From Thermosediminibacter litoriperuensis (GTDB lineage Bacteria > Bacillota > Thermosediminibacteria > Thermosediminibacterales > Thermosediminibacteraceae), in the NCBI RefSeq assembly GCF_008124715.1, contig NZ_VNHO01000003.1, forward strand, positions 1 to 64,000: DNA of 64,000 nucleotides. Reading direction: 5' to 3'. This document shows, in pieces, positions 57,158-63,890 of this stretch; position 1 is the stretch's first letter; every line of letters starts with the position of its first letter. The notes beneath the pieces were generated by a model. It did not search any database. It was not told where the DNA came from and saw only the letters and a program-made list of their open reading frames with translations. The translations under genes and the position numbers were made by a program.

Positions 57158-57229
57158 CCTCCGCTGTATAAAATTATCCGGCCGGGACAAAAATATCCTT
57201 AAACAATAATGAAGGATCGGAGCAGAACC

Positions 57230-58210
57230 ATGATTTCGACCGTGAATACCAACATAGAGGATATCCCCCAGATATCCAAGGAAATGAAACTCATAGAAAG
57301 GGAACTAATGCGGGTGATCGAGGAAAGCGATGAACCGGTCCGCGGTATACTGAGAGACTTCTTCGCCGGTGGAAAGCGGCTCAGGCCCAAGCTAGTACTG
57401 CTTTCGGGACTTTGCTTTTCTCCTGTAAACACGAAAATGATCTATTCGGCCGTAGCCGCCGAATTGATACATACCGCGTCTCTGATACACGACGATGTGA
57501 TAGACCGGTCCGATTACAGGCGAAACCGCCCCACAATAAATTATGTTTACGGCAACCATACTGCCGTCCTTGCCGGTGACTTCGTTTTCGCCAAAGCTTT
57601 TGAAGTGCTCTGCAGGTACAACCTGAATCGATGCATGGGGTACCTGGTTGACGCCATCCAGGAAATGTGCGCGGGCGAGATCATGCAGGCTCGTGATAGT
57701 CCGGACAAAACGGTTGATGAAGATCACTATTTCAGGACCATAGAAAAAAAAACGGCGTCGCTTATCGCAGCCTGCTGCAAATCAGGCGCCGACTGCGGCA
57801 AAGCCGGTGAGGTGCAGATAGAAAAAATGGGGCTTTTCGGCCTGTATCTGGGTTACGCCTTCCAGATAGTAGACGATATACTGGACGTAACCGGCGATAC
57901 AAGCGAGATGGGAAAACCCGTAGCCCACGACCTGGAAGAGGGAAAAATAACCCTGCCCTATATATATCTTCTGCAGGACAGCGTGTTGGGGGCTAAATAC
58001 CGGGATATTCTGTCGGACAGAAAACTGGCGGCCGGTATGAAGGCCCAGATCATCCGTGATCTCAAGCAGTCGGCTGCTATCACGAAGACCTATGCAAAGG
58101 CTGAAGAATGCGTTAAAAAGGCCAGAGAAATCTTGGACGGGCTGCCCGATTCAATTTACAAGGAGATATTGACAGACCTTTCCGGGAAGGTAATAAAAAG
58201 GAACAGGTGA
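57230..58210 (+). CDS. Long-chain (E)-polyprenyl diphosphate synthase, HepT/IspB type
   Basis: A 326-aa isoprenyl synthase. GGKRLRPKL (48-56), the first aspartate motif LIHDDVIDRSDYRR (88-92 DDVID) and the second QIVDDILDVTGD are intact. No bulky residue precedes the first motif (ELIHTASLIHDD), as in hepta- and octaprenyl enzymes, so products of C35 or longer are likely. The ATG at 57230 has GGAG 7 nt upstream. It converges without a gap on a DUF2600 terpene cyclase, which would use a C35 substrate. No HepS partner is encoded nearby. Confidence 0.88.
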   Translation: MISTVNTNIEDIPQISKEMKLIERELMRVIEESDEPVRGILRDFFAGGKRLRPKLVLLSGLCFSPVNTKMIYSAVAAELIHTASLIHDDVIDRSDYRRNRPTINYVYGNHTAVLAGDFVFAKAFEVLCRYNLNRCMGYLVDAIQEMCAGEIMQARDSPDKTVDEDHYFRTIEKKTASLIAACCKSGADCGKAGEVQIEKMGLFGLYLGYAFQIVDDILDVTGDTSEMGKPVAHDLEEGKITLPYIYLLQDSVLGAKYRDILSDRKLAAGMKAQIIRDLKQSAAITKTYAKAEECVKKAREILDGLPDSIYKEILTDLSGKVIKRNR

Positions 58211-59275
58211 TCAAAGCCTGTTCGTTTTTCTTAGCTGGGAGCAAACACCGTGCATCAACCTGGCATAATATCCGCACCAGTTTAAGAGCTCCGCCGTGAC
58301 CAGCTTGCGCCCGCCGGTGTAGGCTTTCGGATCCGACAGGTACATGGCCATGAGGCCGTCCACGACCGTGCTGTGAAAAACGGGATATCTTAATTTTGCC
58401 GATTCTTCCAGGGAATTTTGGTAAAACAACTTCAACCGTTCTAAACATTTTATCTCATTGGTGTAGTAACTTACGAAATTCAGATCGCCGCCATCCTTAT
58501 CCTCATCCAAGTCGATGTAATAGTCCAGCAGGATGTGCAGGCCGCAGATCCAGGGAAAATACGATTGAAATATTTTCCAGGCCTCAAGGTTGTCCAGTTC
58601 CGGATCGGCGGCAGCCGCCACCAGCATGAAAATTCCCAGCGTAGAACCCGCGGCTGCGGAAAACTCCCACCCGCTGATTTCGGGAAAGTAATCCAGGTAG
58701 TTGCTGAACCACCCGGCCATTCTGCATTCCCTGATTTCCGGCGCCAGGTGTTTGTATACCTGTAGGTCCGAGTAAAGCCTCGCCAGAAAGAGAATCTTCT
58801 CCCTTATTATGGTATAAGAGGGCAGAGTGGATACAAATTTTTTGCACTCACTGACCAATAACGTAAGGTACCCGCCATCGTTTCTGTAAGGGTAATACTT
58901 GTAATAATCGTTGTAACTCTCCCCCGGAAGCAGGGCATCGATCATGGCCAGGTGAAGCTGCCTGAAAGCCTCTTCTTCCATAACTCCTGCCCTATCGCAT
59001 AAATTGTCCAGGTAATCGCTAATTGTCTGGTATGATACTATGAAATGAACCATGTCCTTTTGCGAAACACCGGGGTACAGAGCGTATACGCTGCCGCCCT
59101 GGCAATGAAACTTCTTTTTCTTTATGCTCTCCAGGGCCTGGCGGCTTAACACCGGATCCGGAATTCTTTCCGCAAGGCTGGTATACTTTTTTAGTTCGAC
59201 ATCTACTATCGGAAATATCCTGTTAATAAATTTATACAGAAGGCTGAAACGGTAAAAGCAGTCTTTCAGAACCAT
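58211..59275 (-). CDS. DUF2600 terpene synthase, tetraprenyl-beta-curcumene synthase type
   Basis: A 354-aa all-helical protein of the DUF2600 family, whose characterised member YtpB of Bacillus cyclises heptaprenyl diphosphate to tetraprenyl-beta-curcumene on the way to sesquarterpenes. The metal-binding region SDYLDNLCDRAG and a second acidic cluster DYYIDLDEDKDGGDLNF are visible, along with YLTLLVSECKKFVSTLPSY. The gene has CCGGAGGATCT before its ATG and ends one base from the prenyl synthase stop. A role in membrane or spore terpenoids is inferred from Bacillus. Confidence 0.85.
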   Translation of the reverse strand: MVLKDCFYRFSLLYKFINRIFPIVDVELKKYTSLAERIPDPVLSRQALESIKKKKFHCQGGSVYALYPGVSQKDMVHFIVSYQTISDYLDNLCDRAGVMEEEAFRQLHLAMIDALLPGESYNDYYKYYPYRNDGGYLTLLVSECKKFVSTLPSYTIIREKILFLARLYSDLQVYKHLAPEIRECRMAGWFSNYLDYFPEISGWEFSAAAGSTLGIFMLVAAAADPELDNLEAWKIFQSYFPWICGLHILLDYYIDLDEDKDGGDLNFVSYYTNEIKCLERLKLFYQNSLEESAKLRYPVFHSTVVDGLMAMYLSDPKAYTGGRKLVTAELLNWCGYYARLMHGVCSQLRKTNRL

Positions 59276-59447: not shown

Positions 59448-61634
59448 ATGCTGAAAAGACAGGTCGCATTTTTCCTCCTAATATTTAATTTTGTGCTTTT
59501 TTCATCCCCCGTCGCCGCCGATACCGGTTCTTCCCGCAAGCTGGCGGTTATGATTGTGCTGGACCGCATAAACCTGGAGGACCTGGATGGAGATTATCCG
59601 AACATCCACGGGCTTATGGACCGGGGTGTCACTGCCCTAATGAACACCAGGACTGCCGGTTATTACGATCCCGCCAGCTGCTACCTTACTCTCGGAGCCG
59701 GAACCAGAGCCCATGCCGGCGGCAAAGGCAAAGAGGCCCTGATGGCCTTCGAAGAATATAAAGTCGCGGACGCAGGCAGCACCTTTGAAATGTTCACCGG
59801 TATTGCCGTGCCCCGCAGTGCCATAGTGGAACTGGATATTCCCGCCATAATTTCGGAAAGCAAAAAACAGAACCACGAGATAATACCGGGGCTCCTGGGG
59901 GAGCTCTTGAAAAACAACGGCATACCCGTATCAATTCTGGGTAACGCGGACACGCCTTCGGAAAAAAACAGGCTGGCGGCACTGATAGCAATGGATACTA
60001 CCGGTGTAGTATACTCGGGGTATGTGGGCGGGGATCTCAACAAAAAAGACGGCAAAAGCCCTTTTTTCGTAAAAACCGACTACGAAAAACTTTACGCGAA
60101 ATTTGATGAATTAAAGGAAAAGGGCGGTCTTATAGTAATCCAGCTGGGCGATACCGTCAGAGCCAACGACTGCATCAACCTCGTTACGCCGGAAGTGTAC
60201 GAACACTATCGGAGGAAGGCTCTGAAGGAGGCCGACGAATTCATCGGAAGGGTAGCGGCGGCTATGGACCTTAAAAAGGACCTGCTGATGATCGTAACGC
60301 CATTCCCGTCCCACCGGGGGTACGCAGAACGCAACCTGCTCACTCCGTTCATAGCCGCCGGCCCCAAGATGGCCCCGGGCCTGGCGCGATCCGCCACCAC
60401 CCGCCGACCCGGCATAATCTCAAACATCGACATTGCCCCTACGGTGCTGGCTTTTTTCCGAATCCCGGTACCGGCGGTGATGCTGGGCAATCCCGTGGAA
60501 AGTATAGATTTTTCAGGGACCTACGATTACCTCCTCGATACCAACAGGAAAGCGATTTATACATACGTCCAAAGACCCTATCTTATAAAGTCGTATGTAG
60601 CCATGCAGATAGCGGTCTCCATAGCATTCCTGCTGTTCATTTACTTTAAAAGGAACTGGCTCGCTTTCGCGAAGCCATTTATCCTTGCAAACATGGCGGT
60701 ACCGCTGGTTTTCCTTGTGCTTCCGCTGTTTCCGGGGGAAACTTTGTTTTACAGGTACGCCTGGACCTTTATCATCACCGCGGCAGCAGTGTCCATCGCT
60801 ATTAGCTTTAAAAGTACCCTTGGCTCCATTGCTTTTATATGCCTGCTCACTGCATCGGCAATAACCGCCGACCTGGTATCCGGTGCACGGCTTTTAGGAA
60901 CTTCGGTACTGGGACATGATCCTCTGGCGGGGGCCCGCTATTACGGCCTGGGCAACGAATACATGGGCGTACTCGTAGGTTCGACCGCCATCGGTATTAC
61001 CGCTCTTCTGGACGAAATTAAGATTAAAAATCGCCTCACGTCGCTTGCAGTAGGCCTTTTCGTATTCGGCTTACTCTTTTACCTCATATCATCCCCGTTT
61101 TTCGGAAGCAACGTGGGCGGGGCTATCAGCGCCTACGGAGCCTTTTTGACCACTCTGATTTTGCTTTCCGGCTCAAGGCTTAACCTGAGGACCTTCGGCG
61201 GCATTGGGGCCGGGATGGCGGTTATGATCGCGCTCCTGTTTTTCTGGGCAACCGTAGCAGGTCCGCCCAGTCATATCAGCCAGACGGTGGCGCTGATGAA
61301 AGAAATGGGAATAGAGCCTGTATTCTCGATAATAACCCGGAAACTCTCTATGAATTACAGGTTGTTCAGATACACACCCTGGACCCGGGCGCTCATCACA
61401 ACCATCGCGGTCATAATTTCCCTTTCTTTCAGGCCTCCCGATACCATGAAGAAAATTTTCAGCAAGTACCGGCAGCTTTACGCCGGATTTTTAGGTGCCA
61501 GCGTCGGTTGCATTCTGGCGTTTATTTTCAACGATTCAGGTATCGTAGCAGCAGGAACCATGGCAATTTTCCTGGGGTTGCCGGTTTTGCTGCTGATAGC
61601 CGAAGAAATAACAGTTCACCGGCAGGTCGATTGA
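59448..61634 (+). CDS. Large membrane protein with alkaline-phosphatase-superfamily ectodomain
   Basis: A 728-aa protein. A signal peptide (residues 1-24) is followed by an extracellular domain to about 370 with alkaline phosphatase/sulfatase features: VMIVLDRINLEDL, a DPASCYLTLGAGTRA nucleophile region, MIVTPFPSHRGYAERNLLTPF, and SNIDIAPTVLAFF as in phosphotransferase-fold enzymes. The C-terminal half has about ten hydrophobic segments, with the conserved GARYYGLGNEYMGVLVGSTA. Similar proteins occur in anaerobic Firmicutes but I know no function; envelope phosphotransfer is a guess. The next gene starts two bases after its stop. Confidence 0.7.
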   Translation: MLKRQVAFFLLIFNFVLFSSPVAADTGSSRKLAVMIVLDRINLEDLDGDYPNIHGLMDRGVTALMNTRTAGYYDPASCYLTLGAGTRAHAGGKGKEALMAFEEYKVADAGSTFEMFTGIAVPRSAIVELDIPAIISESKKQNHEIIPGLLGELLKNNGIPVSILGNADTPSEKNRLAALIAMDTTGVVYSGYVGGDLNKKDGKSPFFVKTDYEKLYAKFDELKEKGGLIVIQLGDTVRANDCINLVTPEVYEHYRRKALKEADEFIGRVAAAMDLKKDLLMIVTPFPSHRGYAERNLLTPFIAAGPKMAPGLARSATTRRPGIISNIDIAPTVLAFFRIPVPAVMLGNPVESIDFSGTYDYLLDTNRKAIYTYVQRPYLIKSYVAMQIAVSIAFLLFIYFKRNWLAFAKPFILANMAVPLVFLVLPLFPGETLFYRYAWTFIITAAAVSIAISFKSTLGSIAFICLLTASAITADLVSGARLLGTSVLGHDPLAGARYYGLGNEYMGVLVGSTAIGITALLDEIKIKNRLTSLAVGLFVFGLLFYLISSPFFGSNVGGAISAYGAFLTTLILLSGSRLNLRTFGGIGAGMAVMIALLFFWATVAGPPSHISQTVALMKEMGIEPVFSIITRKLSMNYRLFRYTPWTRALITTIAVIISLSFRPPDTMKKIFSKYRQLYAGFLGASVGCILAFIFNDSGIVAAGTMAIFLGLPVLLLIAEEITVHRQVD

Positions 61635-61635
61635 A

Positions 61636-62751
61636 ATGCAGAAGATAAAACTCCTAGAACTGGTCCGGGACTCCGAAGGTGGCATGAAGCGCCACGTGGA
61701 ACAGCTCCTTTGGGGTTTCGATAAAGCTAAATTCGACATATTCCTCGCCCTTTCGGACGACAACCCGGATACCTGGAATCTGGAGAAATTAAACGTAAAA
61801 GTCCACAGCATTAAACTGGGGGACCGACGTAGCCCAATAGCGGTGTGTAAATCCCTTTTTGACATCGTTAAGCTTATCAAAAAAGAGGGGATAGAAATAA
61901 TACACGCCCATGGGCTGGCCGGGGCTATAATGGGCACTACTGCCGCCTTTTCCGCCGGCACCCCCGCAATCGTAACCACGGTGCACAATTTCCCGAAAAA
62001 CACTTTTTTAAGCCGCACTGCGGGGTATTTGTTGAGGTACAATCACAAAATAATAACCGTGTCGTACCGGATGGCTCGTGAGATCAGCAGAATGTGGGGC
62101 ATTCCCCCGGGAAAAATCGAGGTCATCTACAACGGTGTAGACCCCTATCTTATTGCAAAATACCAAGGGAACGACGATGAATGCCGGCAAAAACCCGTAG
62201 CGATTCTGAACATATCCCGCCTCATCCCCGAAAAGGGAGTTGACGTATTCCTCAAGGCCTGCGCCATCCTGGTCGAAAGGTTTTCCGGCGAGGACATAGA
62301 AACAGTTTTTTATATAGCCGGAAACGGCCCTCTGGAACGGGAGCTCAAGGATCTGGCAAAAGGCCTGGGGCTGGAAGGAAGGGTGAATTTCCTGGGGTTC
62401 TGCTGGGATATATACCGGATAGTGGGCAATTCAGATATGCTGGTGCTCTCCTCGCGCAGCGAGGGTTTGAGCCTTTCGCTGCTGGAGGCCATGGCCATGG
62501 GAAAGCCGGTCATAGCAACGGACGTTGGGGGAAATCCGGAAATAGTAAAACACGGGGTAACCGGCATACTGGTGCCGCCCGATAACCCCCGTGCCCTTGC
62601 GGAAGCCATGGAATACGTTATAAGAAACCCCGGTGATGCGGGGAAAATGGCCCGGACAGCCCACCGAATGGTAATGGAACACTTCACCCATGAGCACATG
62701 ATAGAGGCCGTACAGAATCTCTTTATTTCCTTGGTAAATCAGAGTGGATAG
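61636..62751 (+). CDS. GT4-family glycosyltransferase
   Basis: A 371-aa GT-B fold glycosyltransferase. An N-terminal acceptor domain (ELVRDSEGGMKRHVEQLL, then IIHAHGLAGAIMGTTAAF) precedes a donor-binding domain with NISRLIPEKGVDVFLKAC, FYIAGNGPLEREL and the E-x7-E retaining motif SEGLSLSLLEAMAMGKPVIA. Donor and acceptor are unknown. It starts immediately after the phosphatase-like membrane protein, so both likely act on the same envelope polymer or lipid. Confidence 0.88.
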   Translation: MQKIKLLELVRDSEGGMKRHVEQLLWGFDKAKFDIFLALSDDNPDTWNLEKLNVKVHSIKLGDRRSPIAVCKSLFDIVKLIKKEGIEIIHAHGLAGAIMGTTAAFSAGTPAIVTTVHNFPKNTFLSRTAGYLLRYNHKIITVSYRMAREISRMWGIPPGKIEVIYNGVDPYLIAKYQGNDDECRQKPVAILNISRLIPEKGVDVFLKACAILVERFSGEDIETVFYIAGNGPLERELKDLAKGLGLEGRVNFLGFCWDIYRIVGNSDMLVLSSRSEGLSLSLLEAMAMGKPVIATDVGGNPEIVKHGVTGILVPPDNPRALAEAMEYVIRNPGDAGKMARTAHRMVMEHFTHEHMIEAVQNLFISLVNQSG

Positions 62752-62845: not shown

Positions 62846-63253
62846 ATGGCGGATACCACTAGATTCGGAATTTCCATGAGCCAGGACTTACTGGATAAAT
62901 TCGACAGAATGATACAGAAAAAAGGCTATACCAACCGTTCGGAAGCTCTGAGGGACCTGGTAAGAAACGCCCTCATAGAAGACATGTGGGAAAAAGACAC
63001 CGGTACCCTCGCCGGCACCATAACAATTATTTACGACCACAACAGCCACGGAATTACCGACACCCTTACCCACATGCAGCATCACTTTCATCACCTGATA
63101 ATATCCACCGTACACGTGCACTTCGATGAAAAAAACTGCTTGGAAGTCCTCATAGTAAAGGGCATGGCGCAAGAGATTAAAAAACTCCACGAAAAACTTT
63201 CTTCCCTGAAGGGCGTAAAACATTCCAGGCTGTCCGTAACGGGCATTATTTGA
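62846..63253 (+). CDS. nikR: Nickel-responsive regulator NikR
   Basis: A 135-aa ribbon-helix-helix/ACT protein. The N-terminal RFGISMSQDLLDKFDRMIQ and GYTNRSEALRDLVR form the DNA-binding domain. The C-terminal domain has the square-planar nickel ligand set as His, His, His, Cys (about H79, H90, H92, C98) in MQHHFHHLIISTVHVHFDEKNC. It is a repressor of nickel uptake; the target is not readable, but an ECF-type S component follows. GGGAGG precedes the ATG. Confidence 0.92.
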   Translation: MADTTRFGISMSQDLLDKFDRMIQKKGYTNRSEALRDLVRNALIEDMWEKDTGTLAGTITIIYDHNSHGITDTLTHMQHHFHHLIISTVHVHFDEKNCLEVLIVKGMAQEIKKLHEKLSSLKGVKHSRLSVTGII

Positions 63254-63274
63254 TTTACGGCAGATTAATTTTTT

Positions 63275-63289
63275 TAACATAGCGTGTTA
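63275..63289. promoter_or_regulatory. Inverted repeat between nikR and the ECF gene
   Basis: TAACA-TAGCG-TGTTA, with a further GTGTTAC about 20 nt downstream, lies in the short intergenic region. It could be a NikR operator or another regulatory site; the known E. coli sequence does not match. Confidence 0.3.
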
Positions 63290-63341
63290 CGTTATCTTTT
63301 TTGTGTGTTACCTAAAAATAAATGTTCAGGGGGAATGTATA

Positions 63342-63890
63342 ATGGAAAATAAAATCAAAGACATCGCAGCCGCGGGCCTTCTGGTCGCCGCGGGAATACT
63401 GCTGCCGATAGCCTTTCACACTTACAAGCTGGGAGGGCCAGTGTTTCTACCCATGCATATCCCTGTACTGCTGGGGGGCTTCATGCTGTCGAAAAACCTG
63501 GCAGCCCTGATAGGGATTTCAACCCCCTTTTTAAGTTTCGTCCTTACATCGATGCCCTCTCCACCCGCCGTCTTTGCCATGATGGCCGAACTAGCTACAT
63601 ACGGATTTGTAAGTTCGTTTTTTTACCGCCACCGAAAATGGGGTATATACCCGGCCCTTGCCGGAACAATGCTTTCCGGAAGAATTGCCTCTATAGTTGC
63701 CAACTGGTTAATCATTGCCTGCATATTAGAAAAGCCCCTTAGCTTGGCGAAAGTAATGACGTCGCTTTTCATAACCGGCCTGCCGGGAATTCTTATTCAG
63801 CTCATCCTCATCCCCTTAATAGTGAAACTGGTCGAATCCCGAACCCCATTACAGGGGCAGGCCAGCGCTGCCGGTGGGGAAAGGAGGTAA
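63342..63890 (+). CDS. ECF transporter S-component-like membrane protein
   Basis: A 182-aa protein with six hydrophobic segments and the short-loop pattern of ECF S components (IAAAGLLVAAGILLPIAFH, LPMHIPVLLGGF, and a Pro-rich SPPAVFAMMAE). It lacks EcfA and EcfT here, so it would use a shared energy-coupling module. Next to nikR, a nickel or cofactor substrate is possible. ATG 63342 follows GGGGGAATGTATA; an upstream in-frame Met is rejected for lack of a site. Confidence 0.75.
   Translation: MENKIKDIAAAGLLVAAGILLPIAFHTYKLGGPVFLPMHIPVLLGGFMLSKNLAALIGISTPFLSFVLTSMPSPPAVFAMMAELATYGFVSSFFYRHRKWGIYPALAGTMLSGRIASIVANWLIIACILEKPLSLAKVMTSLFITGLPGILIQLILIPLIVKLVESRTPLQGQASAAGGERR

Follow-up and report, generated by a model that had tools for sequence, protein, structure and literature searches.

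The window, a stretch of 64,000 nucleotides from Thermosediminibacter litoriperuensis, carries a conserved two-gene module in which a 728-residue membrane protein is followed by a GT4 glycosyltransferase. The membrane protein combines an ectodomain of the alkaline phosphatase (ALP) fold, with its metal site lost, and a polytopic membrane half, and it belongs to a widespread family of about 730 residues. As our best, still tentative explanation, we propose that in endospore formers it serves as a polymerase or ligase of GT-C_B-like kind, which acts on a lipid-linked envelope glycan, carries an inactive ALP domain and has the GT4 as its partner. The computed basis of this proposal is the metal-less ectodomain, the mostly outward-lying invariant residues of the membrane half, the retained GT4 and a GT4 paralogue beside a Wzy_C gene; the step that is catalysed, its substrate and the link to spores are what we infer.

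The 728-residue protein is encoded on the forward strand at 59448..61634, with an ATG start, an upstream AGGAG and a stop codon at 61632-61634. An N-terminal signal or anchor helix precedes the ectodomain (residues 28-354; 59529..60509, forward strand) and the membrane half (residues 356-728; 60513..61631, forward strand). The AlphaFold2 model has a mean pLDDT of 92.1 and a pTM of 0.89, and the membrane half modelled alone gives 93.3 and 0.92. A polytopic C-terminal half had been described by the sequence-only reading, but with about ten helices, while the model contains 12 long ones. The GT4 was also recognized there, at a spacing of two bases; in fact only one base separates the stop codon of the first gene, ending at 61634, from the ATG of the second (61636..62751, forward strand, 371 residues). 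The partner matches PF00534 (3.5e-45) and PF13439 (4.6e-24) and contains the E-x7-E motif as EGLSLSLLE, so that it shows both the Pfam domains and the motif of a GT4; it also adjoins the family gene in relatives and has a paralogue in a csaB locus.

For the 728-residue protein, no Pfam or NCBIfam family exceeded its cut-off in either half, 47 relatives, when scanned, matched sulfatases and metalloenzymes no better than weakly (best E 7e-5), and a literature search, judged by titles and the openings of abstracts, found no paper on the family. The protein is no chance reading frame: 80 relatives were kept from one scan, and strong matches (E < 1e-30) occur in 235 of 398 genomes of the phylum (260 matching genomes minus 25 weak ones). 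A family carried by over half of the genomes sampled from its phylum is without a Pfam or NCBIfam model above cut-off.

The ALP-superfamily fold predicted for the ectodomain was borne out. VIA superimposed residues 28-354 on iPGM (1o98) with a Z-score of 23.8 and an rmsd of 2.8 Å over 249 residues, and Z-scores of 21-24 were obtained against iPGM, PafA, ENPPs and others. Foldseek matched the domain with PH0037, LtaP, LtaS, YejM and ENPPs, LtaS and LtaP being among the top rows, and in hhalign the iPGM profile matched the last 100 residues of the ectodomain at 94.6%. Enzymes of this superfamily possess a two-metal His/Asp site and a Ser/Thr nucleophile, a combination that the ectodomain lacks. 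In the 47-row family alignment, His does not reach 30% in any ectodomain column. The DH pair of iPGM aligns with Phe286-Pro287, a position that forms a conserved P-x-P in the family, and the last His ligand of iPGM (the His462 equivalent) falls in a gap, with no His in the family. Most of the Asp ligands are lost, Asp235 (kept in 43/47) and Asp39 (32/47) being remnants. Thr/Ser81 is kept in 46 of 47 sequences, its match to the nucleophile column being uncertain, and Thr318 is the sole invariant polar residue of the domain. Judged by its sequence, the ectodomain is probably a non-catalytic relative of these enzymes, and we call it a pseudo-phosphatase. The sequence-only reading had named loss of the metal ligands on structural alignment as a finding that would overturn it. 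That loss extends through the 47 sequences, and an active phosphatase or phosphotransferase was rejected on the missing DH pair and His ligands.

The membrane half, by contrast with the ectodomain, holds all the invariant polar residues of the protein but one. Across the 47 sequences these are Asp475, Arg497, Tyr499, Asn503, Tyr505, Asn555, His609, Lys632, Asn695 and Asp696, and most of them sit in loops predicted to be outside. Four such loops can be delineated, all on the forward strand: the motif GARYYGLGNEYMG (residues 495-507; 60930..60968) with Arg497, Tyr499, Asn503 and Tyr505; GSNVGG (residues 553-558; 61104..61121) with Asn555; Ser608-His609 (61269..61274) with His609; and NDSG (residues 695-698; 61530..61541) with Asn695 and Asp696. 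Their predicted location follows from the ectodomain lying outside, the alternation of the helices and the positive charges of the other loops. Arg631-Lys632 (61338..61343, forward strand; Arg631 kept in 44/47) belongs to a charged segment that could face either side of the membrane. According to the excerpted text of Meitil et al. (PMC10920833), all the families of lipid-pyrophosphate-sugar transferases treated there have their conserved residues on the outer face, typically arginines together with a His or an acidic residue. The 728-residue family has this pattern in common with them, in that Arg497, His609 and Asp696 are present in 47/47 sequences in predicted outer loops; by analogy these residues may be catalytic.

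Might the protein instead be no enzyme at all? As a regulator or scaffold, its ALP domain would sense or bind an envelope glycan or lipid and its membrane half would signal to another enzyme, as proposed for YejM/PbgA. We regard this as unlikely: the lost metal site and the match of the ectodomain fold with YejM agree with it, but the strongest conservation falls on the polar and charged outer-loop residues of the membrane half, a pattern expected more often where catalysis or transport takes place, and the precedent itself is disputed, Mg-dependent phosphatase activity of YejM being reported in the excerpted text of PMC7576196.

Comparison of folds is suggestive of a resemblance between the modelled membrane half and the WaaL and RodA/FtsW proteins. 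Eight of the top ten VIA rows are structures of WaaL, RodA, FtsW or other SEDS proteins, led by WaaL (7tpg; Z 9.3, 266 residues aligned), with RodA (6bar, Z 9.2, together with 6bas, 6pl5, 6pl6 and 8tj3) and FtsW (8bh1, Z 8.0; 8p1u, Z 7.2) after it. Designed helical barrels appear in the same list with Z-scores of 8.4, 7.6 and 6.8, the first two making up the rest of the top ten, and later rows are mostly GPCRs (Z ≤5.7); as VIA itself warns, helical bundles can reach a Z-score of about 9 without kinship. FtsW is also the top Foldseek row (E 0.17, probability 0.85). In hhalign, the membrane half gave a probability of at most 2.5% against Wzy_C, SEDS and DUF5693 profiles, whereas in the positive controls two Wzy_C subgroups found each other at 100% and one found SEDS at 52%, where the GT-C_B clan (WaaL, SEDS, GT-C1) was represented solely by proteins of PF04932 and PF01098 taken from related genomes. 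Homology to Wzy_C, SEDS or DUF5693 thus finds no support in the profile comparison, and the likeness to WaaL and SEDS proteins is structural and tentative. Searching the PDB sequences with a profile of the membrane half returned only chance matches (nucleoside diphosphate kinase, best E 0.31), and a BFVD fold search returned no match with E < 0.001.

A flippase or transporter for a lipid-linked glycan completed by the GT4 would also account for a polytopic protein that has a GT4 of the cytoplasm as its partner and for the many conserved glycines and polar residues in the 47-row alignment. We think it quite improbable: neither a transporter nor a PIG-N type protein is prominent in the lists from Foldseek and VIA, in which either could still be missed. 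Very improbable, too, is a phospho-group transferase whose metal site has been remodelled, be it like LtaS, like EptA or like the GPI-ethanolamine-phosphate (PIG-N) enzymes, since the shared fold, the high-ranking LtaS and LtaP, the residual Asp39, Asp235 and Thr/Ser81, and an order of ectodomain before many helices that we take to resemble PIG-N stand against the want of any well-populated His column, a DH pair replaced within P-x-P, an absent last His, a window protein with no family match over the Pfam cut-off and no PIG-N type match among the 47 members.

The pairing with a GT4, which the sequence-only reading had noticed at one locus, proved to be a conserved module. One scan of species genomes left 80 loci, or 81 with the window. 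Of the 73 whose flanks are long enough, 50 have a GT4 adjoining the family gene, upstream in 43 and downstream in 7, and 23 have none of this kind. A script had counted a same-strand GT4 of one cluster in 47 loci (40 upstream, 7 downstream) and none in 26, with 8 loci cut by a contig end; in three of the 26 (L013, L020 and L042) the upstream GT4 overlaps an over-long start, hence the count by hand. The two genes overlap by 4 bases in 13 of the 40 upstream cases found by the script. In a second sample of 20, partly sharing species with the first, the GT4 was adjacent in 14 (13 upstream, 1 downstream). The family gene and a GT4 form a two-gene module in which the GT4 can stand on either side.

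Departures from this arrangement fall into several kinds. Syntrophomonas-like genomes have two tandem family copies and no GT4; in Syntrophomonas wolfei the two copies share one frame of about 1480 residues (L082:5914-10356), and comparable fused open frames of 1494 and 1486 residues are found in G015 and G134. At the expected GT4 position in Thermovorax subterraneus (L003:8370-9563) lies a frame with a weak, below-cut-off match of the Cas12f1-like (TnpB-type) kind (PF07282, 2.8e-4), perhaps a mobile element at the module. In four loci of Halanaerobiales (L039, L071, L076 and L077) the family gene stands without a GT4 between a short gene, which we take to be IreB-like, and an FtsA-like gene (PF14450 in L077).

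The company of the module supports the envelope-glycan context suggested earlier. A Wzz-type gene comes after the pair in two loci, identified by Pfam in L019 and by clustering and sub-cut-off NCBIfam matches in L047, where it is followed by GalU, RmlB and RmlA, each over its NCBIfam cut-off. A profile of 33 upstream GT4s, run against the genome of T. litoriperuensis, matched the window GT4 best (322 bits) and, second, a GT4 on another contig (299 bits). The latter belongs to a locus (C4, L205:10007-16765) with the order Wzy_C, GT4, DUF5693, CsaB and TagA, CsaB scoring above its cut-off, and the order Wzy_C, GT4, DUF5693 recurs in G362. GT4s of this subfamily thus accompany either a 728-residue family protein or a Wzy_C protein. 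In the GT4 tree, the window GT4 and four other downstream partners form one group (100/100); its deep order, including the closeness of the window GT4 to those of csaB loci, is not fixed. The csaB locus is of the type for secondary cell wall polymers that has been studied in Paenibacillus and B. anthracis, as described in the excerpted text of PMC6030368. Membership of the csaB system itself was considered for the 728-residue family and rejected: among 61 genomes DUF5693 is found in 38 and the family in 43, and the patterns are not shared. The DUF5693 proteins, encoded after a GT4, form a membrane family that is itself uncharacterised, and a literature search on the term found no paper.

Which known systems come closest? 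WaaL O-antigen ligase and Wzy_C proteins (PF04932; CAZy GT121 and polymerase families) are likewise polytopic, have invariant Arg and His in outer loops, supply the top structural row, and adjoin the GT4 paralogue in the same genome. The 728-residue protein differs from them in having an N-terminal ALP-fold ectodomain and other motifs, with no detectable sequence or profile similarity. RodA and FtsW (SEDS; PF01098, GT119), the second-best structural group, differ in the same respects: no profile similarity, no such ectodomain and different motifs. iPGM, LtaS, YejM and other ALP-superfamily proteins share the fold of residues 28-354, whereas the ectodomain has lost the metal-ligand His and most Asp residues. 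DUF5693 (PF18949) of csaB loci has, by eye, an extracytoplasmic part and C-terminal helices, and its gene comes immediately after one for a GT4 from this subfamily, but its profile similarity to either half is not above chance in hhalign. WpaA and WpaB of Bacillus anthracis are Wzy/WaaL-clan proteins thought, according to the excerpt of PMC6030368, to help assemble the secondary cell wall polysaccharide. They are PF13425 proteins, and the csaB locus in the genome of the window has a Wzy_C protein of its own. We know of no ALP domain in WpaA or WpaB.

We propose that the pair may build an extracytoplasmic glycan from a lipid carrier. On the cytoplasmic side, the GT4 would extend a lipid-linked precursor by a sugar. 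Once the precursor has been flipped, the membrane half would act in the manner of WaaL or SEDS (GT-C_B) enzymes, its Arg and Lys residues holding the lipid pyrophosphate and His609 or an acidic residue such as Asp696 activating the acceptor for polymerisation or ligation of the glycan. The ALP-fold domain would be non-catalytic and may bind or position the polymer or acceptor. In favour of the polymerase or ligase we count the VIA and Foldseek rows, the outer-loop residues, the pattern described in the excerpt of PMC10920833, the adjacency and Wzy_C-locus paralogue of the GT4, and the Wzz loci; against it, a Z-score of 9 within chance for helical bundles, the negative hhalign result, the 23 of 73 loci lacking an adjacent GT4 of this kind and the failure to find sigma-E or sigma-G type promoters upstream in 70 loci. 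If correct, the protein would represent a new architecture among lipid-linked glycan enzymes. More doubtful is a stronger version, in which the family would be a class of its own, and a new one, among the polymerases or ligases of extracytoplasmic glycans: a GT-C_B-like membrane enzyme with a captured, dead phosphatase-fold module that reads glycan or acceptor, and with a dedicated GT4, making an envelope glycan of endospore-forming, Clostridia-like Bacillota.

The carriers are many spore-forming, Clostridium-related bacteria. SpoIVA occurs in 336 of the 398 genomes, and the family is found in 229 of these compared with 6 of the 62 without SpoIVA (odds ratio 20, Fisher 1.6e-18, a test that ignores phylogeny); among those six genomes are two with a completeness of just 61% and 75%. 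By these counts, uncorrected for phylogeny, the distribution is tied to endospore formation. In a control of 61 genomes, DUF5693 occurs in four of the seven lacking SpoIVA and the 728-residue family in none of them. The SpoIVA link suggests that the product may be made in, or for, endospores; should the protein prove to be a polymerase or ligase, this tie would imply that endospore formers carry out a step of glycan synthesis not yet described. SpoIVA lies 4-35 kb from the family gene on the same contig in at least 21 genomes (by eye, among the rows listed) and far away in others, which indicates a shared neighbourhood rather than an operon. A crude scan of 70 upstream regions with consensus sequences gave no clear sporulation promoter signal (sigma-E 0, sigma-G 0, sigma-K 2, sigma-H 3). 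The excerpted text of a sporulation paper (PMC3533761) does not mention 'alkaline phosphatase' or 'glycosyltransferase'. Five further genomes (G152, G179, G204, G277 and G301; family f87) match the full-length profile at E 1e-12 to 1e-20, above the usual iPGM background, and these sequences are possible divergent relatives.

Outside the module, a polyprenyl diphosphate synthase nearest to HepT (57209..58210, forward strand; Pfam/NCBIfam) is convergent with a DUF2600 gene (58211..59275, reverse strand; PF10776, 3.3e-136), together spanning 57209-59275. We take DUF2600 to be the YtpB/tetraprenyl-beta-curcumene synthase family, and the pair suggests a C35 terpene. The sequence-only reading had attached meaning to this terpene neighbourhood. 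Prenyl diphosphate synthase and quinone genes do recur near the family gene in other lineages, with SpoIVA in some, but DUF2600 is a neighbour in just 5 of the 81 loci, and a terpene-pathway partner was rejected on that ground; the surroundings look less like a pathway than like a neighbourhood of ancestral origin. On the other side of the module, at 62846-63890, a NikR regulator is followed by the substrate-specific component of an ECF transporter, which may be a NikR-controlled gene for the uptake of nickel or a cofactor.
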